Of a stretch of DNA of 33,277 nt, positions 4,979-27,447 are shown one piece after another. The notes beneath the pieces were generated by a model. The model had not been told where the DNA came from. It saw nothing but the letters and a program-made list of their open reading frames with translations, and made no database searches. Positions within the stretch are counted from its first letter, which is position 1; every line of letters begins with the position of its first letter. The position numbers were made by a program, and so were the translations under genes. Origin of the DNA: Paludisphaera rhizosphaerae (GTDB taxonomy: Bacteria; Planctomycetota; Planctomycetia; Isosphaerales; Isosphaeraceae); contig NZ_JAALCR010000050.1 of NCBI RefSeq assembly GCF_011065895.1, forward strand, positions 1 through 33,277, read 5' to 3'.

Positions 4979-6355
4979 TCAGAGAATGTAGCGGCTGAGA
5001 TCCTCGTCACGGGCGACGTCGTCCAGGCGGTTGCGGACGAGGACGGCGTCGATGACGATTCGCTCCCCCTTGCGTTCGGGGGCGTCGAAGCTGACGTCTT
5101 CCAGCACCCGTTCGAGAATCGTGTGCAGGCGGCGAGCGCCGATGTTCTGGGTGGAACGGTTGACCTGAAACGCCAGATCGGCCATCGCCTCGATGGCGTC
5201 GTCAGTGAACTCGATGGTCACCCCTTCGGCGCTAAGCAGGGCTTCGTACTGGCGGAGGAGGGAGGCCCGAGGCTCCCGAAGGATCCGGGCGAAGTCGTCG
5301 CGGGCGAGGTCGTGCATCTCGACCCGGATCGGGAACCGCCCCTGGAGTTCGGGCATCAGGTCGGACGGTTTGCTGCGGTGGAATGCTCCGGCCGCGACGA
5401 AGAGGATGTGGTCGGTCTTCACCGGGCCGTACTTGGTGTTGACCGTCGTCCCCTCGACGATGGGCAGCAGGTCGCGCTGGACGCCCTGGCGGGAGACGTC
5501 GGGCCCCCGCGAGCCGCCGTCGTCGCCGGCGACCTTGTCGATCTCGTCGATGAAGACGATCCCCGACTCCTGGGCCAGTTCGACGGCCGCCTGGTTCACC
5601 TTCTCGGGGTCGAGGAGAGCGTCGACTTCCTGCTGGAGCAAGATCGGCCGGGCCTCGCGGACGGTCGTCCGACGCGGCTTGGCGGCCTTGGGCATGATCT
5701 TCTCGAACATCCCCTGGATGTCCATCTCCATCTGCTCCAGGTTCCCCGCGCCGAGGATCGAGACCGGCGGGGCGGATCGGCCGGGGATCATGACCTCGAC
5801 CTCGCGGTCCTCCAACTCGCCGGCCGTCAGCCGAGCCCGGAGCTTCTCCCGCGACCGCGCCCGACGTTCGGCCGCCTCGTCCGCGGCTCCCGGCGGCGGG
5901 GTCGGATCCCAGGGCGATGGCGAGGGGGACGACTGCGGCGGCAGCATCAGGTCGAGCAGTCGGTCCTCGACGCGTGCCTCGGCCTGTTCCTGGACGCGTT
6001 TGCGCTCGATCTCGCGGACGAGGAGGATAGACGCCTCGACGAGGTCTCGGATCAGGCTCTCAACATCGCGACCGTAGTAGCCGACCTCGGTGAACTTGGT
6101 TGCTTCGGTCTTGATGAACGGAGCGCCGACGAGGGTCGCCAGCCGACGGGCGATCTCGGTCTTGCCGACTCCGGTCGGGCCGATCAGCAGGATGTTCTTG
6201 GGTGTCACCTGGGCGCGAAGGTCGTCCGAAAGCATCCGCCGCCGCCAACGGTTGCGCAGGGCGATCGCCACCGCGCGCTTGGCGTCGGCCTGGCCGACGA
6301 TGTCGCGATCCAGTTCGGCGACGATCCGCCGGGGCGTCAGCTCGTGCTCGGACAC
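4979..6355 (-). CDS. hslU: ATP-dependent protease ATPase subunit HslU (ClpY)
   Basis: AAA+ unfoldase of 458 residues that feeds substrates to HslV in the cytosol. The N-terminal segment [18 protein letters not shown] is typical. Walker A is GPTGVGKT (59-66) and Walker B IVFIDE (266-271). The intermediate I-domain occupies about 110-240 and carries a Pro/Ser-rich insert (about 140-156). The C-terminus ends EDLSRYIL, matching the tail that docks into and activates HslV. The pore loop reads GYYG (92-95) instead of the usual GYVG. The start overlaps the end of hslV by 19 bases, so the pair is translationally linked in the usual hslVU order. Length is close to other HslU proteins (about 440-460). 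Confidence 0.97.
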
Positions 6356-6885
6356 GGGAGTTCCTCCACCGTCAGATGCGTGTTCGTGTAGATGTCGATC
6401 CCCCCCGCGATCGTCAGCGATTCGCGGACGATCTCGGCAGCGGAGAGGTTCGAATGAGCGACCAACGCCCGTGCCGCCGCCAGCGCATAGCCTCCGCCGG
6501 AGCCGGTGGCGAGCAGACCGTCGGTCGGCTGGATGACGTCGCCGGAGCCGGTGAGCATCAGGCTGTGGCGGGCGTCGACGACCAGCAGGACGGCCTCCAG
6601 CCGGCGCAGGGCGCGGTCGGTCCGCCAGAGCTTGGCCAATTCGATAGCGGCCCGGGGGATATTGTTGGGATGGTCCTTCAGCTTGCCCTCGAACCGCTCC
6701 AGCAGGGCGAAGCCGTCGGCCGCCGAGCCGGCGAAGCCGACGATGACCTGGCCGTCCAGCAGTTTGCGGATCTTCACCGCGTCGGCCTTCATGACCTGGG
6801 TCCCCAGCGTCACCTGGCCGTCGCCGCCGATGGCGACCTTACCCCCCTTCCGCACCGAGAGGATCGTCGTCGCATGCCACTTCAA
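6337..6885 (-). CDS. hslV: ATP-dependent protease proteolytic subunit HslV (ClpQ)
   Basis: Threonine protease of the HslVU complex. The core [23 protein letters not shown] is followed by [35 protein letters not shown] and [14 protein letters not shown], all diagnostic. The start is placed at TTG 6885: a perfect AGGAGG lies eight bases upstream, and the product then begins MKWHA before the nucleophile Thr6. The short propeptide ending HA resembles that of Bacillus ClpQ, whereas in E. coli the Thr directly follows Met1. An alternative ATG at 6930 would add 15 residues. The mature form needs autocleavage before Thr6, which is inferred. The gene overlaps hslU by 19 bases. Confidence 0.95.
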
Positions 6886-6893
6886 GGGGGTCG

Positions 6894-6899
6894 CCTCCT
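6894..6899 (-). promoter_or_regulatory. Shine-Dalgarno site deciding the hslV start
   Basis: AGGAGG on the minus strand, eight bases before TTG 6885. No comparable site precedes the ATG at 6930, so the TTG start is favoured. Confidence 0.65.
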
Positions 6900-7014
6900 G
6901 GTCGCCGATCGCGCGGTGGGTCGTATCCATACAATCAAGGGACGGCCGCCCGCGCGCGGTTCGCTCGCCTTCCCGAGGATACGAGATCAAGGGGCCCGCC
7001 GCCAATTGGGGCGA

Positions 7015-9873: not shown

Positions 9874-12800
9874 TTATCGCGCGCTCTCGACCGTCTCCCA
9901 CTCCCTCGCCGGGGCCTCAGCCGCGAGCGCCGGGGCTTGTTCGACTGAGAAGCGGACGCCCATGCGGCGCAGGAAGCAGACGAACTGGTCGAGCAGGGCG
10001 TAGAAGACGGGGGTGACCAGAAGCGCCAGGACGAGGGAGAGCATCTGGCCGCCGATGATGACCTTGGCCATGCTCGCGCGAGCCCCTGCACCGGGGCCTT
10101 GACCGAGGGCCATCGGGACCATCGAGGCCACCAGCATGACCGTCGTCATCAGGATCGGCCGCAACCGGGTGTGGTTGGCCTCGACGATCGCGTCGTGCCG
10201 TGATTCCCCCCGCGCCCGGAGCTGGTTCGTGGCGTCGACCTGGAGGATACCGTTCTTCTTCACGATGCCCACGAGCATGAACAGCCCGAACATCGCGTAG
10301 AGGTCTAGAGGCGTCCTGAAGAAGTAGAGCGACAGGAGCCCGAAGGGGATCGTCACGGGCAAGGCCATGAGGATGGAGATCGGCTGGGTCCAGCTCTCGA
10401 ACTGAGCCGCCAGGATCAGGTACATGAACAGCACCGAGAGCCCGAAGGCGATCCCGAAGTAGTAGGCCGTCTCCGCCAGCGTCTTGGCCTGGCCGGTCAG
10501 GACGTAAGAGTAGCCGGGCCCCATCTCCATGTCCTTGATGACCCCCTGAGCGAGCGTGACGGCGTCGCCCAGGGCGATGGACTCGGGATTACCCAGCACG
10601 GTCACGATCCGCTCGCGGTTGAGCCGCTCGATCTCCGTCGGCCCCCGCTCGTCGACGAGCTTCGCAAGGCTGGAGAGCTTCACCAGCCCGGCCTTCGACG
10701 AGGGGAGGGTGAGTTGGTAGATCTCGTCAACCGAGCCGCGGAGCTTGGCGTCGGCACGGAGCCAGACGTCGTACTGCTCCTCACCGTCGCGGAACCGGGT
10801 GACCGGCAGACCGCCGACGAGGACGCGGAGGCTGTCGGCAATCGTTCCGACCGGCACGCCCAGGTCGCTGGCCGCCTCCCGGTCGACGTTCACCTGAACC
10901 TCGGGCTTGCGGAGCGAGAGCGTCGTGTCCAGGTCGACGACCCGGCCGTCGCGCTTCAGACCCTCGACGAGCTTATCGGCGTACACCGACAGTTGCTCCA
11001 GGTCGGGCCCCCCCAGGTTGATCTGGAAAGTCTGTGGACGACGTCCTCCCTGGAAGGCCGAGACGTCGTTGACGCTGGCGCGGAGGTCGGGGTAGTCGGC
11101 CAGAAACGCGCGGGCCTCCTGCTGGATGGCGAACTGGGTGTAGTCGCGCTCTTCCAGCTCGGCCATGCGAACGTAGATCGTCGCCCGGGTGACGTCGCCC
11201 GCTCCCTTCACCGCCCGGCCGGTGGTCGAGCCGATCTGAGTGAAGACGTGTTTCGTCCCGTTGAGCTTCCAGACGCGCTCCTCCAGCTCCTTCATGAGGC
11301 TCGAGGTTCGCTCCAGGCTGTAGCCCTCGGGCGTGGTGACGCTGACCTCATACTCGCTCTGGTCGTCGCGGGGGATCAGTGAGAAGCCCACCGCCTTGCC
11401 GATGGGGATCGTCGACAGGAACGTCAACAGAGCGATGATGATAACCACGAACTTGAATCGGAGCGCCCCGCGGAGCATCCCGCCGTAGCTGCCGTCGATG
11501 ATCCGCCAGATGAAGCCCGACTTGGACGCCGCGCCGTGACCACCCTCGCCCGGCTCCAACTTGAGGAACCGCGAGCAGAGCATCGGCGTCAGGGTGAACG
11601 ACACGAACAGGCTCATCGCCACGGCGAAGGCCACCGTACCGCCGAAGCTGGAGAAGAACCGGCCGACGATGCCTCCCATGAAGGCGATCGGCAGAAAGAT
11701 GACGATCAGCGAGAGGCTGGTCGCCATGACCGCCAGGGCGATCTCCTTCGTCCCCTTGCGCGAGGCCGTCATGGCGTCGAGACCATCCTCCTCCATATGG
11801 CGGAAGATGTTCTCGTGCACGACCACCGCGTCGTCGATCACAATGCCGATCGCCAGGATCAGGGCGAGCATCGTGATGTTGTTGAGCGTGAAGCCCATGT
11901 ACCGCATAAACATGAACGTCGGGATGATCGACGTCGGGATCGCCATCGTGGCGATGAGGGTCGTTCGCCAGTCTCGGATGAACAGCAGGATCGTCCCCGA
12001 GACCAGCACGGCCGCCAGCATCAGGTGGAACTTCACCTCCTCGATGGACTTCTCGATGAACCGCGACTGGTCGCGGATGATCTCGATGGCGATGTCCGGA
12101 GGGAGGGTCTGCATGATCGTCTCCAGCCGTTCTTTCACGTCGTGAACGAGCTGGACCGTGTTGACCCCCGACTGCTTCTGGACCACCAGGCTCACAGCGG
12201 AATCGCCGTCGAGCCGGGCGAGGCTCCGAGGCTCCTCGAACGAGTCCTCGGCGCGGCCGACGTCCTTGACCCGAATCGGATAGCCGTTGCGGTTGGCGAT
12301 GATGAGGTTGTTGAACTCGGCTTCCGTCCGGAGCCGCCCCAACGTCCGAAGCACCAGCTCGCGCGGGCCCTGATCGACGCGGCCTCCGGGGACTTCCAGA
12401 TTCTGCCGCAACAGGGCCTGCTGGACGTCGTCGACCGAGAGGTCGTAGGCGGCGAGGCGGTCGGTGTCGATGACAACGTTCATCGCCCGCGTCCGGCCGC
12501 CGACGAGGTTAATCGAGCCCACGCCGGGCACCGTTTCCAGTCGCTCCTTGATCTGGCGGCGGGCCAACTCGGTCACCTCGCGGAAGTCGCGACGGCCGGA
12601 GATTGCCAGGGTCGCGACGGGCATCGAGCCGGTGTCGAACTTGTCGATGATCGGCGGGTCGGTCCCATCGGGGAGATCGCCGAGGATCGTGTTGACCTTG
12701 TCGCGGACCTCCTGCGTTCCGACGTCTCCGTTCTTCGAGAGCAGGAACTGCACGGTGACGACCGACACCCCCTCCTGCGTCGTCGAGCGCAGCTCGTCGA

Positions 12801-13029
12801 TGCCGGAGACCGTGTTGATGATGTCCTCGATGGGCTTGGTGACCGTCGACTCCATCTCCTCGACGCTGGCCCCCGGCAGCACGGTGGTCACCGTGCAGAC
12901 GGGGAAGTCGACGTCGGGGAAGAGGTCGACGCCCAGCTCGGAGTAGGAGACGGCCCCCAGCACCAGCGGGACGATCACCAGCACCCACGTGAAGACGGGG
13001 CGATTGATGCAGACGTCGGACAGCGTCAT
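9874..13029 (-). CDS. RND efflux pump inner-membrane subunit (HAE1/AcrB type)
   Basis: Complete proton-driven export pump of 1051 residues. TM1 is in INRPVFTWVLVIVPLVLG, followed by two large periplasmic loops and two sets of transmembrane helices. The TM4 proton-relay acids are in GIVIDDAVVVHENIF, and the TM10 lysine in VGIVKKNGILQVDATNQLR. Both agree with the AcrB pattern (Asp-Asp and Lys). Length fits the family (1020-1060). It begins 31 bases after the adaptor gene and is the third gene of a TetR-adaptor-pump operon. No outer-membrane channel gene is present, so a TolC-like partner must be encoded elsewhere. Substrate unknown; hydrophobic compounds are likely from the family. Confidence 0.96.
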   Translation of the reverse strand: MTLSDVCINRPVFTWVLVIVPLVLGAVSYSELGVDLFPDVDFPVCTVTTVLPGASVEEMESTVTKPIEDIINTVSGIDELRSTTQEGVSVVTVQFLLSKNGDVGTQEVRDKVNTILGDLPDGTDPPIIDKFDTGSMPVATLAISGRRDFREVTELARRQIKERLETVPGVGSINLVGGRTRAMNVVIDTDRLAAYDLSVDDVQQALLRQNLEVPGGRVDQGPRELVLRTLGRLRTEAEFNNLIIANRNGYPIRVKDVGRAEDSFEEPRSLARLDGDSAVSLVVQKQSGVNTVQLVHDVKERLETIMQTLPPDIAIEIIRDQSRFIEKSIEEVKFHLMLAAVLVSGTILLFIRDWRTTLIATMAIPTSIIPTFMFMRYMGFTLNNITMLALILAIGIVIDDAVVVHENIFRHMEEDGLDAMTASRKGTKEIALAVMATSLSLIVIFLPIAFMGGIVGRFFSSFGGTVAFAVAMSLFVSFTLTPMLCSRFLKLEPGEGGHGAASKSGFIWRIIDGSYGGMLRGALRFKFVVIIIALLTFLSTIPIGKAVGFSLIPRDDQSEYEVSVTTPEGYSLERTSSLMKELEERVWKLNGTKHVFTQIGSTTGRAVKGAGDVTRATIYVRMAELEERDYTQFAIQQEARAFLADYPDLRASVNDVSAFQGGRRPQTFQINLGGPDLEQLSVYADKLVEGLKRDGRVVDLDTTLSLRKPEVQVNVDREAASDLGVPVGTIADSLRVLVGGLPVTRFRDGEEQYDVWLRADAKLRGSVDEIYQLTLPSSKAGLVKLSSLAKLVDERGPTEIERLNRERIVTVLGNPESIALGDAVTLAQGVIKDMEMGPGYSYVLTGQAKTLAETAYYFGIAFGLSVLFMYLILAAQFESWTQPISILMALPVTIPFGLLSLYFFRTPLDLYAMFGLFMLVGIVKKNGILQVDATNQLRARGESRHDAIVEANHTRLRPILMTTVMLVASMVPMALGQGPGAGARASMAKVIIGGQMLSLVLALLVTPVFYALLDQFVCFLRRMGVRFSVEQAPALAAEAPAREWETVESAR

Positions 13030-13060
13030 AGGACGGACCTCGGGACGTGTTCGGTTCTCG

Positions 13061-14458
13061 TCAAGACTTCGCCGGCGCGGGCTGCTTGGGAGCCTCGGGT
13101 TGATCAGGTTCGATCGGCGTCGAAGCCTCGGACTTGGCGGATTCGGGAGGGCGGACGAAGATCTTGGCTCCGTCAGCCAACTTGGTCTGGCCGGTGACGA
13201 CGACCTGCCCGGTGGCTGGGAGCTTCTTGCTGGTCACCTCGACCCAACCGGTCCCCTCCCTGCCGAGAACCAGGTCGTCGATGGATCGGACCTTGTCGCC
13301 GTCGAGGAGGAATAGCTTGGTGACGCCGGCGTACTGAACGACCGACTCGATCGGGACGACGGCGGCGTCGGCCGCGGCCTCGGTGACGATCACGGCCTTG
13401 GCGAAACCGCCCGGGTGCAGCAGACGCTCCTCGTTCGGAGCCACGGCCTCAACGTGAAAGGTCCGGCTGGCGGAGTCGATCGTCGGGTTGATCCGCGCGA
13501 CCTTCCCCTCGAAGGTGCGACCGGGATGCGAGGCCACCGAGATCCGAACGGGCTGTCCCTCGCGAACGCGATCGCTGAAGCGTTCGGGGACGGTCAGCCA
13601 GAGTCGCAGGGGGTTCTCGATGACCATGTCGAAGACCGCCTCGCCTTCCTTGATCATCTGCCCCTCAGCCACGGAGCGGCTGGCGATGGCGTAGACCACG
13701 TCGTCGGCCTTGGCCTTGGTCGGGACCGCCTCCTGCGGCTGAGGCGCGAGGATCGTCATGTCCTTGAGGAGTTGCTCCTGCTGGTCGCGGTTCACGCGGC
13801 TGGCCAGGGCCATGGCGATGATGTTGCGGGCGGTCGACTTGGCGTTGTCGTACGCGGCGATCGAGGTCCGATAGTCGGTCTCGCGATCCTCAAGCTCCTG
13901 GGTGGTGCTGGCCCCCTTGCGGTTGAGGTTGCGCTGGCGGGCGAGGTCCGCGGCGGCCTTCTCCATCGACAGCCTGTACTGGACGACGGCGGCGACCTTC
14001 TCGATGACCTCCTCGGTCTGAGGCCCGTTGACCAGGGTTTCGCTGATTCCGTAGCGGCGGACGAAATCGTCGGCCATCTGCGAGGTGATCCCCAGCCGCA
14101 CCAGTTCCGCCAGGTATCGGGATTCGGCCGCGTTATAGGCGAGTTGGGCGTCGACGGGATCGAGTTGCACCAGCGGTTCGTCGGGTTTGACGCGGTCTCC
14201 CATGTCGTGGAAGACCTTCAACACCCGGCCCGACCGCTTGGAGCCGACCGTCACCTGCTCCCAGCCTCGCAGCGAGCCGACGGCCTCGATGGTCCGTTCG
14301 ACCGATCGCTTTTCAATCGGCGCGACGGTCACCACGACGGGCTGCGGCGCCTCGGCCGCCTTGTTCTCGGCCGCCTTCTCTTCCTTATGTGCGCAGCCGG
14401 CCCAGGCTGTCGCCAGGACCGCTGCGACCAGGATCGACGCTGACGTCCTACGTTTCAT
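13061..14458 (-). CDS. RND efflux periplasmic adaptor, lipoprotein
   Basis: Membrane-fusion protein of 465 residues. The leader MKRRTSASILVAAVLATAWAGC ends in a lipobox with Cys22, so it is probably lipid-anchored, as AcrA is. A Lys/Glu/Ala linker follows. Lipoyl-half motifs are near VGSLRGWEQVTVGSKRSG and VFHDMGDRVKPDEPLVQLD. A long helical hairpin spans about 120-230, and beta-barrel and membrane-proximal domains follow (LRLWLTVPERFSDRV, GKVARINPTIDSASRTF). The C-terminal tail of about 25 residues is Pro/Ala/Glu-rich. The start codon overlaps the stop of the TetR gene (ATGA), indicating translational coupling. It works with the pump encoded 31 bases downstream. Confidence 0.94.
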   Translation of the reverse strand: MKRRTSASILVAAVLATAWAGCAHKEEKAAENKAAEAPQPVVVTVAPIEKRSVERTIEAVGSLRGWEQVTVGSKRSGRVLKVFHDMGDRVKPDEPLVQLDPVDAQLAYNAAESRYLAELVRLGITSQMADDFVRRYGISETLVNGPQTEEVIEKVAAVVQYRLSMEKAAADLARQRNLNRKGASTTQELEDRETDYRTSIAAYDNAKSTARNIIAMALASRVNRDQQEQLLKDMTILAPQPQEAVPTKAKADDVVYAIASRSVAEGQMIKEGEAVFDMVIENPLRLWLTVPERFSDRVREGQPVRISVASHPGRTFEGKVARINPTIDSASRTFHVEAVAPNEERLLHPGGFAKAVIVTEAAADAAVVPIESVVQYAGVTKLFLLDGDKVRSIDDLVLGREGTGWVEVTSKKLPATGQVVVTGQTKLADGAKIFVRPPESAKSEASTPIEPDQPEAPKQPAPAKS

Positions 14459-25781: not shown

Positions 25782-26492
25782 ATGTCCACCACGCCTCCTT
25801 TGATCCTCGACTTCGCCGGCTCAACGATCCTCCCCGCCACCGGGACGATCCACGTCTACCGCGTGGACCTCTCTGGTGACGACGCGTTTCGCCAGTCGGC
25901 CGAGTGGGACCTGCTTTCAGCCGATGAACGAGCGCGGGCGGAACGGTTGGTCAGGGCTCGCGACGGGCGGAAGTTCGTGAAGTGTCGCGGGGCGCTCCGA
26001 TCGATATTAGGCGGATTGTCGCACGTCGCCCCAGACTCGGTGGCCTTCGAGGTGGGACCGGGTGGAAAGCCCATGCTTCCGGACGGGCCCTGGCGGTTCA
26101 ACGTCAGTCACTCGGGAGAGTTGGCGCTGATCGCCGTGGCGCAGAACGTGGAACTGGGCGTCGACGTGGAGGAGTACCGAACGATCCAGCAGTCCGACCG
26201 GATCGTCGAATCCTACTTCACCGCGGCCGAATCGGCCGAGTTCCGCAGGCTCGACGAGGACGACCGCTCGGAGGCGTTCATCCGGGGCTGGACGCGGAAA
26301 GAGGCCGTCGTGAAAGCCCAGGGAGTGGGGCTGGCTGGGTTGGCGACCGAGTTCGAGACCCTGTTCGGCGCAGGCCGTCCTCCCGAGGCGTTCCGCCTCT
26401 GCGAGCCGATGGACGAGGTTCGCGGCTGGCGGCTCTGGGAGGTCTCGCCCAGGCCCGGATACGTCGCCACGCTGGCCGTCGCCATCGATTGA
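25782..26492 (+). CDS. 4'-phosphopantetheinyl transferase (Sfp type)
   Basis: A 236-residue enzyme that moves phosphopantetheine from CoA to a Ser of carrier proteins (fatty acid, polyketide or peptide synthesis). Signature motifs are GGKPMLP (94-100), FNVSHSG (106-112), GVDVE (126-130, Mg ligands Asp128 and Glu130) and RGWTRKEAVVKAQGVGL (168-184). Two-domain length, about twice that of AcpS, agrees with the Sfp group. GAGGG lies about five bases before the ATG. No polyketide or peptide synthetase genes are in the window, so its carrier target lies elsewhere. The nearest upstream gene is divergent. Confidence 0.95.
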   Translation: MSTTPPLILDFAGSTILPATGTIHVYRVDLSGDDAFRQSAEWDLLSADERARAERLVRARDGRKFVKCRGALRSILGGLSHVAPDSVAFEVGPGGKPMLPDGPWRFNVSHSGELALIAVAQNVELGVDVEEYRTIQQSDRIVESYFTAAESAEFRRLDEDDRSEAFIRGWTRKEAVVKAQGVGLAGLATEFETLFGAGRPPEAFRLCEPMDEVRGWRLWEVSPRPGYVATLAVAID

Positions 26493-26598: not shown

Positions 26599-27447
26599 AT
26601 GAGCATGATCGGATTCGCCCTCACAATCCTGGCGGCGTATGTGGTCATTCGGATGCTAGCGAAGGCCGGAGCCTGGGCGACCGGCTCCCGCTACCGGGCC
26701 TTCCGCCGCCTGGCCTCGCGCTTCGGCGGCCGTTATGAGACGCGCGGCCTGTCGGATTCTCCCATCGTGAGCTTCCCCGAGGGGGAGGACATCGTCCGGG
26801 TCGGGCTCGCGCCAGCCTCGGGGCGAAGGCCGGGAGGGACCAGTACGCGCGTCGTCGTCCGTTTCCGCACAGGGATGCCGTTCCGGCTGGACCTGACGCC
26901 TCAGAACTCGCCGGCCGTGCGTATGGTCGCCAAGGGGACGCAGCCCGTCCGCGTGGGAGACCGGGAATTCGACGGCGCGTACGCCGTCCGCGCCAACGAC
27001 CCCGACATGGCGCTCGACTTCCTCTCGCCCGCGACGCGATGGGCCGTCCAGGGGCTTCAACGCCTGGTCCAACCCGGAGGGTTGTCGATCTCGATCATCC
27101 CCGAGCGTCTGCTCGTCCAGATCGACCGCAACCTCAGCGACGACGAGGAAGCGCTGTTCGCGGCCGTCGCGGAGACCTTGACCATCCACAAGGGCCTCCG
27201 CGAGGGGGTCCGCAGGAGGGTCGGCGAGGGCGTCACCCTTTTGGAAGGAGATGCGGCCGCTGATCCAGACGAGGGGCCTCCCGTCTGCAAGGTCTGCGGC
27301 GAGATCGTCGACACCGGCCCGATCACCCTCTGCGCCAAATGCGGCGCTCCGCACCACCGCGACTGCTGGGAGTTCGTCGGCTGGTGCTCGATCTACGGCT
27401 GTGGAGGGAAGCTCGGCAAGCCGGCGTCGACGTCGATCCGATCGTGA
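26599..27447 (+). CDS. Membrane-anchored protein with prokaryotic RING-type zinc finger
   Basis: Product of 282 residues. An N-terminal helix MIGFALTILAAYVVIRML anchors it to the membrane. Residues about 25-215 form a mixed alpha/beta domain (strand-rich near RVVVRFRTGMPFRLDLTP, helix-rich near DDEEALFAAVAETLTI) that I do not recognise. The C-terminal end (228-270) is Cys/His-rich: C230-x2-C233, C245-x2-C248, H252-H253, C256, C263, C268, with CKVCGE and CAKCGAPHHRDCW. This is the cross-brace spacing of prokaryotic RING fingers (Prok-RING_1). It probably binds two zinc ions and proteins. No ubiquitin-like or E2-like gene lies nearby, so ligase activity is not supported. The ATG at 26599 is preferred to a GTG at 26584. 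Confidence 0.82.
   Translation: MSMIGFALTILAAYVVIRMLAKAGAWATGSRYRAFRRLASRFGGRYETRGLSDSPIVSFPEGEDIVRVGLAPASGRRPGGTSTRVVVRFRTGMPFRLDLTPQNSPAVRMVAKGTQPVRVGDREFDGAYAVRANDPDMALDFLSPATRWAVQGLQRLVQPGGLSISIIPERLLVQIDRNLSDDEEALFAAVAETLTIHKGLREGVRRRVGEGVTLLEGDAAADPDEGPPVCKVCGEIVDTGPITLCAKCGAPHHRDCWEFVGWCSIYGCGGKLGKPASTSIRS

Follow-up and report, generated by a model that had tools for sequence, protein, structure and literature searches.

A probable membrane-anchored RING E3-like component of a planctomycete YukD-like ubiquitin-like pathway

The protein encoded by a RING finger gene in a 33,277-nucleotide stretch of planctomycete DNA (the window) is probably a membrane-anchored, E3-like (ligase) component of a pathway built around a YukD-like ubiquitin-like protein (Ubl). 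This reading is based on the domain anatomy and zinc ligands of the protein, pathway genes in the same genome, gene linkage in relatives, co-occurrence, and a fold match of the protein core. If the RING protein is a ligase, a bacterial E1-E2-E3-JAB cascade at a membrane would become open to testing, and three membrane-complex proteins (TtfA, CCDC47, and the window protein) would be joined through the fold of its core.

The RING protein gene and its membrane anchor

The layout of the gene and its product is collected in Table 1. The open reading frame starts at an ATG that tentatively fits the starts of its relatives, which were themselves chosen near the start of each match, and one named relative is a Paludisphaera soli protein with 74% identity. 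Conservation was followed in a 25-row alignment (A1), the rows of which came from full-length family matches selected independently of the finger motif.

Table 1 Features of the RING protein gene and its upstream neighbor, in window coordinates
Feature	Position	Strand	Evidence
RING protein gene, 282 aa + stop	26599..27447	+	ORF; sequence; 25-row alignment A1; matches in 40/45 family genomes
Single N-terminal transmembrane (TM) helix, residues 3-21	26605..26661	+	Hydropathy and K/R counts; helix 2-28 in AlphaFold2 model
Alpha/beta core, residues 29-209	26683..27225	+	AlphaFold2; Foldseek; VIA-align; DUF3137 matches
Variable linker, residues 210-229	27226..27285	+	Low pLDDT in model; alignment A1
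C4HC3 RING-type finger, residues 230-268	27286..27402	+	Prok-RING_1; eight invariant ligands; finger-only model
4'-phosphopantetheinyl transferase (PPTase) gene, upstream of RING gene	25782..26492	+	Pfam ACPS

The protein has one hydrophobic stretch (residues 3-21), and because no lysine or arginine precedes it while six occur in the following 20 residues, the remainder of the protein is predicted to be cytosolic. An N-terminal stretch without a preceding lysine or arginine recurs in all 25 rows of A1, window protein included (three rows carry a second, weak hydrophobic stretch), and the N-terminal membrane anchor proposed by an earlier model reading of the letters (hereafter the sequence-only reading) therefore agrees with hydropathy and charge in every row.

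A C4HC3 RING-type finger

The finger follows the ligand pattern C230-x2-C233-x11-C245-x2-C248-x4-H253-x2-C256-x6-C263-x4-C268, and its eight zinc ligands (C4HC3, four pairs) are invariant in 25/25 rows of A1, as well as in 41/41 rows of a further alignment (A4) whose phylum rows were picked by the motif. Against Prok-RING_1 (PF14446), the window protein scored 33.7 bits (cut-off 29.1), all 25 A1 rows matched at E<=0.05, and the host genome held one match above the cut-off, with the other 11 listed (E<=10) far below it. Both the profile score and the invariance of the ligands bear out the C-terminal eight-ligand Cys/His RING finger recognized by the sequence-only reading. Members of Prok-RING_1 are not all ubiquitin-related.

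Modeled by itself from 41 rows (mean pLDDT 89.7), the finger forms a beta-hairpin followed by a helix. The fold neighbors of this zinc-free model were RING, U-box, and ZZ domains with modest Z scores of at most 6.4 (best 6.4 for IFT-A, 6.3 for Ada2, and 6.2 for a U-box/E3 entry, so identified by title), the top Foldseek row was BIRC7 with UbcH5b-Ub (probability 0.97 but E 0.16), and C1 and PHD profiles also matched the finger weakly. The finger model is compatible with a binuclear treble clef, in which the cross-brace zinc site is putative. A model without a cross-brace, which the sequence-only reading had named as grounds for dropping the RING assignment, was not encountered, yet the model obtained carries no zinc and its fold neighbors are modest and mixed.

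Outside the ligands, all 25 rows of A1 share V232 (in C-x-V-C), W257, and K271. In the archaeal RING protein srfp, ligation was lost or impaired when I30, W58, or R69 was mutated (PMC5654768, excerpt), and positional equivalence of these residues to V232, W257, and K271 is putative. An excerpt of PMC11354881 describes prokaryotic RINGs as C4HC3 with a more widely spaced last pair, and the finger here is likewise C4HC3 with longer spacing in its last pair.

The core shares a fold with TtfA and probably CCDC47

The AlphaFold2 model built with A1 reached a mean pLDDT of 81.7 overall, with ten-residue means in the core mostly at or above 88 and loops down to 69, and placed an alpha/beta domain of ~180 residues at about residues 29-209. 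The sequence-only reading had described this part as an unrecognised alpha/beta domain; alpha/beta it is, but it can now be recognized as TtfA-like in fold and weakly DUF3137-like in sequence. A Foldseek search of the PDB returned TtfA (6t84) at E 7.1e-7 as the sole match below 0.001, followed by 6w6l_7 (human TMCO1 translocon) at E 0.012. In VIA-align, 6t84 again ranked first (Z 15.1, rmsd 3.6, 160 residues, 12% identity), ahead of 7tm3_4 (Z 13.3, rmsd 5.0, 209 residues, TM helix included) and 6w6l_7 (Z 10.5, rmsd 3.7, 171 residues), and the next matches scored Z 8.2 and lower, with type III secretion chaperones among them. The two translocon chains, which from titles and residue numbers we take to be CCDC47, have 7-9% identity. 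The window protein thus has an N-terminal TM helix followed by a TtfA fold, while the C-terminal coiled coil of the CCDC47 type is absent, the model past residue 209 consisting of linker and finger with no long helix.

At the level of sequence, the window protein scored 16.5 bits against DUF3137 (PF11335), under the cut-off of 26.1, and 24 of the 25 A1 rows matched this family at E<=0.05 (best 1e-6). Searching PDB sequences with the A1 profile (E<=10) gave 39 matches, all at profile positions 176-269 (finger and flank) and none in the core by itself, so the link to TtfA and CCDC47 is one of fold. Elsewhere in the phylum, six genomes (G107, G191, G302, G313, G406, and G426) have core-only matches to A1, and the proteins whose A1 match is confined to the core (L156-L163), some of them long-tailed, belong to a wider DUF3137-like group.

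TtfA, the trehalose monomycolate transport factor, is an essential partner of the transporter MmpL3 in mycobacteria, with an N-terminal TM helix (2-24), a conserved part spanning about residues 1-205, and a disordered tail (PMC6593404, excerpt). It shares the TM helix and core fold with the window protein but has a disordered tail in place of the finger and binds MmpL3. In CCDC47, from the multipass translocon of the endoplasmic reticulum, a coiled coil comes after a large globular domain on the cytosolic side (PMC7505659, excerpt). CCDC47 thus shares with the window protein a cytosolic globular domain adjoining the membrane, but it is eukaryotic and ribosome-bound and carries the coiled coil where the window protein has its RING. 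The three proteins have a common layout of a membrane helix, a globular domain, and a differing tail (disordered, coiled coil, or RING). The literature searched contained no paper treating TtfA together with CCDC47 and, by title, no pertinent paper joining two or more of CCDC47, a bacterial homolog, DUF1682, and DUF3137. About 12-17 kb before the RING gene, the window also holds genes for an AcrB-type RND pump and a HlyD-type adaptor (9874-14458, reverse strand), which are of note since TtfA partners an RND-type transporter.

Ubl, E2, E1, and JAB genes in the host genome

According to the sequence-only reading, no E1, E2, or ubiquitin-like gene was present, which holds inside the 33 kb window but fails for the genome as a whole. 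The genome-wide search for E2 and ubiquitin-like genes that it proposed as a check was run with E2 (A2) and Ubl (A3) profiles built from relatives; these located the host-genome E2 and Ubl genes side by side, in a contiguous Ubl-E2-E1-JAB cluster on another contig (L126 = G000:C21:22000-41900). The Ubl scored 56.7 bits against YukD (cut-off 27) and ends in VVAG before the stop codon, and its mean column identity across 11 rows is 82%; in the Ubls of some relatives, the AG is trailed by a few more residues. The E2 (257 aa; UQ_con 46.6 bits, cut-off 27) keeps the HPN motif and a cysteine 8 residues past the N, where it aligns with yeast Ubc13. For the E1 (399 aa; ThiF 179.6 bits, cut-off 28.1), UBA7 and UBA1 chains ranked first among PDB matches and ThiF next, while ThiF and MoeB models outranked Ube1 in NCBIfam, none of them above cut-off. 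The JAB protein scored 36.7 bits (cut-off 22.5), and one or two TM helices were predicted in each of the five JAB proteins examined. The JAB gene of the host (L126:10160-11641) encodes two predicted TM helices, and the charged segment that separates them looks coiled-coil-like by eye; if these predictions hold here and in its orthologues, both the writer and the eraser would be bound to the membrane.

Ubl conjugation in bacteria is mainly known from antiphage loci of scattered occurrence. We considered an antiphage reading and rejected it, since at E<=0.1 PADLOC matched none of RING, Ubl, and E2; the E1 gave partial matches to many E1-E2 models (best 2.1e-14) and to BilD (9.7e-7), and the JAB protein weakly matched JAB and coiled-coil models. 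Since the system is found in most of the family and its Ubl is very conserved, the evidence points to a housekeeping role.

For the proteasome family, the host genome has two matches above cut-off, one of which is HslV while the other scored 26.7 bits. HslU and HslV genes (NCBIfam equivalog models above cut-off) lie in the window at 4979-7005 on the reverse strand, ~20 kb from the RING gene, and it is probably a coincidence that this proteasome-like peptidase, HslUV, shares the window with the RING gene.

Gene order and linkage in the Isosphaeraceae

Across the family set of 45 Isosphaeraceae genomes, the RING gene family was matched in 40 (one finger-only), and E2 and Ubl were each matched in 38 (one with distant matches only). 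With the finger-only RING of G017 and the distant E2/Ubl matches of G016 set aside, the co-occurrence count comprised 39 RING and 37 E2 genomes of the 45: RING, E2, and Ubl together in 35, neither RING nor E2 in four, RING only in four (G003, G006, G016, and G043, which are 92, 85, 83, and 81% complete), and E2 only in two (G017 and G027, 89 and 77% complete). No significant E2 or Ubl match was obtained in G003, G006, or G043, and only distant ones in G016. When the count is limited to the 32 family genomes that are at least 90% complete, both are present in 29, neither in two, RING only in one, and E2 only in none. RING, E2, and Ubl are all missing from the four genomes of genus g18 (94, 93, 64, and 77% complete).

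In 19 of the 35 genomes, representing 11 genera, the RING gene immediately precedes the Ubl gene on the same strand, the two matches being 145-221 bases apart (1282 in G014); in the remaining 16, among them the genus of the window (6/6), it is unlinked. Gene neighborhoods of homologues, another check proposed at the outset, were compared in 33 regions (22 from the family and 11 from elsewhere in the phylum) and placed Ubl, E2, E1, and JAB genes beside the RING gene in relatives: within ~10 kb of it, E2 was present in 12 regions, Ubl in 11, E1 in 11, and JAB in 10. The usual order, downstream of the RING gene and on its strand, is Ubl, E2, ThiF-type E1, JAB, with the exceptions that the partner genes precede the RING gene in L093 and that JAB lies 8 kb off on the opposite strand in L072. 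The first of these loci (in G349) is an operon with two E2-like genes, two JAB genes, and the RING gene last; in one of its E2-like genes, the cysteine normally found after HPN is missing from its place. An MMPL-type gene is found 4-8 kb from the RING-Ubl-E2-E1-JAB genes in L069, L070, L072-L077, and L082, and an M48 peptidase cluster in six regions.

In G014 (L084), the PPTase and RING genes come first, and Ubl, E2, E1, and JAB follow, in this order, after 1.3 kb that holds short open frames, so the PPTase-RING pair of the window corresponds to half of a layout that is complete elsewhere. PPTase neighbors the RING gene in nine of the 33 regions (window included), three of the compared regions being outside the genus of the window, and we regard it as outside the system but useful as a synteny marker. 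As candidate partners, the window neighbors PPTase, Rieske, and GNAT were discarded for showing no functional link; Rieske and GNAT recur in one region outside the genus of the window. A pattern scan of nine unlinked operon regions detected no RING motif in the vicinity of the operon. A tree was built from 38 RING proteins; 16 of its 35 inner forks stayed open, and the linked and unlinked states need five changes, two of which are forced by well-supported branches. If the RING protein is the ligase, its gene can sit far from the operon, and a scan of a single neighborhood misses the link, as here.

Co-occurrence and exceptions across the phylum

The phylum set consisted of 392 genomes, in each of which up to six candidates were scored for the A1 and E2 profiles, so that the counts are lower bounds: at least 44 of the 392 matched A1, at least 33 matched E2, and at least 29 matched both (Fisher p 1.3e-28, with genomes treated as independent and kinship ignored). 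Among the at least 44 genomes with A1, the six core-only ones include none of the 29 with E2, and nine had a finger match but no E2 match. In all eight genomes with a strong E2 match (two from the family of the window), an A1 match spanned the finger and extended into the core.

Exceptions center on genus g25 (G156, G339, and G388; L086-L088), whose genomes, 99% complete, retain the helix, core, and finger, the last with C-x-A-C instead of C-x-V-C, while E2 is unmatched at E<=1 and Ubl matches are no better than E 0.17. The protein can thus exist without this E2, and a reading as a non-ligase adaptor survives there at least. G122 has neither an E2 nor a Ubl match, and G282 has a Ubl match at E 1.1e-21 and no E2 match. 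A search for PF00179 in five genomes returned no match, the controls being likewise unmatched. Many of the weaker phylum matches are finger-only, which fits an additional Ubl system, paralogous to the first and with two RING proteins (e.g., L098-L100). Loci of this putative second system include L098-L101 and, in the wider phylum, L062 and L065; those inspected have adjacent pairs of RING-protein genes, and distant E2 matches occur in seven family genomes. One match in Deltaproteobacteria (L004) was dropped, as the open frame that contains it, 1088 residues long, has an odd composition and a pattern scan found no finger, E2, ThiF, or JAB at the locus.

A putative mechanism and competing readings

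Two features that one would look for in the E3 of a Ubl system were found here: the genome also encodes E1, E2, and Ubl, and the genes are linked or co-inherited, with exceptions of the g25 type. From these data we infer an enzyme activity, an order of steps, E2 docking, and membrane-side targets, as follows. The ThiF-type E1 would adenylate the YukD-like Ubl at its C-terminal Ala-Gly, and the HPN-type E2 would then take the Ubl as a thioester. Held by the N-terminal helix at the cytosolic face of the inner membrane, the RING finger may dock the charged E2, while the TtfA/CCDC47-like core would bind a membrane protein or complex and so select the target; the membrane-anchored JAB protease could remove the tag or trim the Ubl. 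Going further, the system might be a bacterial counterpart of ubiquitin-based membrane-protein quality control, in which an anchored E3 and an anchored JAB eraser manage YukD-like tags on membrane or nascent membrane proteins, as housekeeping rather than antiphage function, with a target-reading core that shares ancestry with CCDC47 and TtfA. As a whole we consider this extension speculative and rather doubtful.

The sequence-only reading had concluded that the protein may be a non-ligase adaptor, i.e., a membrane scaffold whose finger is a protein-binding zinc module and for which adjacency to Ubl genes is regulatory or historical only. The unlinked RING gene in the genus of the window, the three g25 genomes that keep the protein without a detectable E2 or Ubl, and the resemblance of the finger to ZZ, C1, and PHD domains as well are all in line with this idea. 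Because the L126 genes reside in the same genome and the RING gene is directly upstream of Ubl in 19 of 35 family genomes, however, a ligase is likelier than an adaptor, and the linkage across 11 genera, the joint lack of RING, E2, and Ubl in the four g18 genomes, the phylum-wide co-occurrence, and the invariant V232, W257, and K271 also argue against the adaptor, which we consider unlikely.

Two further readings assign the main role to the membrane part of the protein. The E2 could act without an E3, the RING protein itself being modified or bringing Ubl conjugates to the membrane; the TtfA-like core fold agrees with such a substrate or receptor, given that TtfA is the essential partner of MmpL3 (PMC6593404, excerpt), as do the TM helices predicted in the five JAB proteins, but a mere receptor would not need a conserved C4HC3 RING-type finger, and we hold this to be improbable. 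Least probable in our estimate, and very much so, is an accessory of an MMPL/RND transporter akin to TtfA, its finger a stabilizing zinc knot with no Ubl chemistry. Such an accessory would suit the core fold (Z 15.1 to TtfA), the same layout of TM helix, ~180 aa core, and variable tail, the MMPL-type genes of nine of the 33 regions (with Pfam confirmation in L069), and the AcrB-type RND gene ~14 kb upstream in the window; yet the compared regions of the window's own genus contain no MMPL-type cluster, and Ubl, E2, E1, and JAB genes are closer and in more regions. A RING E3-like component of the Ubl pathway is thus the reading that we prefer.

Comparison with known systems

Burroughs, Iyer, and Aravind reportedly described, in 2011 (Mol BioSyst 7:2261), the prokaryotic RING fingers of Ubl operons, their C4HC3 pattern, and their Ubl/E1/E2/JAB neighborhoods. 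The genes studied here share with operons of that type the C4HC3 finger, the neighborhoods of Ubl, E1, E2, and JAB, and the occurrence in planctomycetes, but differ in that the RING gene lies off the operon in the genus of the window and in 16 of 35 family genomes, and in that the fold of the core is identified. Ubl/RING operons are thus already known, planctomycetes included, and the literature searched yielded no description of either a TtfA/CCDC47-like core in a RING protein or the separation of the RING gene from the operon.

Another related system is the srfp cascade of Caldiarchaeum subterraneum, in which a RING E3 works with its own ubiquitin, E1, and E2, and an Rpn11-type protease processes the pro-ubiquitin (PMC5654768, excerpt). 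A RING protein alongside its own modifier, E1, E2, and JAB/Rpn11-type protease is common to both. As given in that excerpt, srfp is small and classed as RING-H2 (C3H2C3), whereas the window protein is C4HC3 and membrane-anchored with a 180-residue core, and the Ubl of the srfp system ends in GG, whereas the YukD-like Ubl here ends in AG. In 2006, Iyer described operons that combine Ubl, E1, E2, and JAB in prokaryotes (PMC1779556, excerpt), and related RING-containing Ubl operons in Actinobacteria, Planctomycetes, and Acidobacteria were called sporadic (PMC4197634, excerpt, citing Burroughs 2011), in contrast to the system described here, which is present in most genomes of its family.
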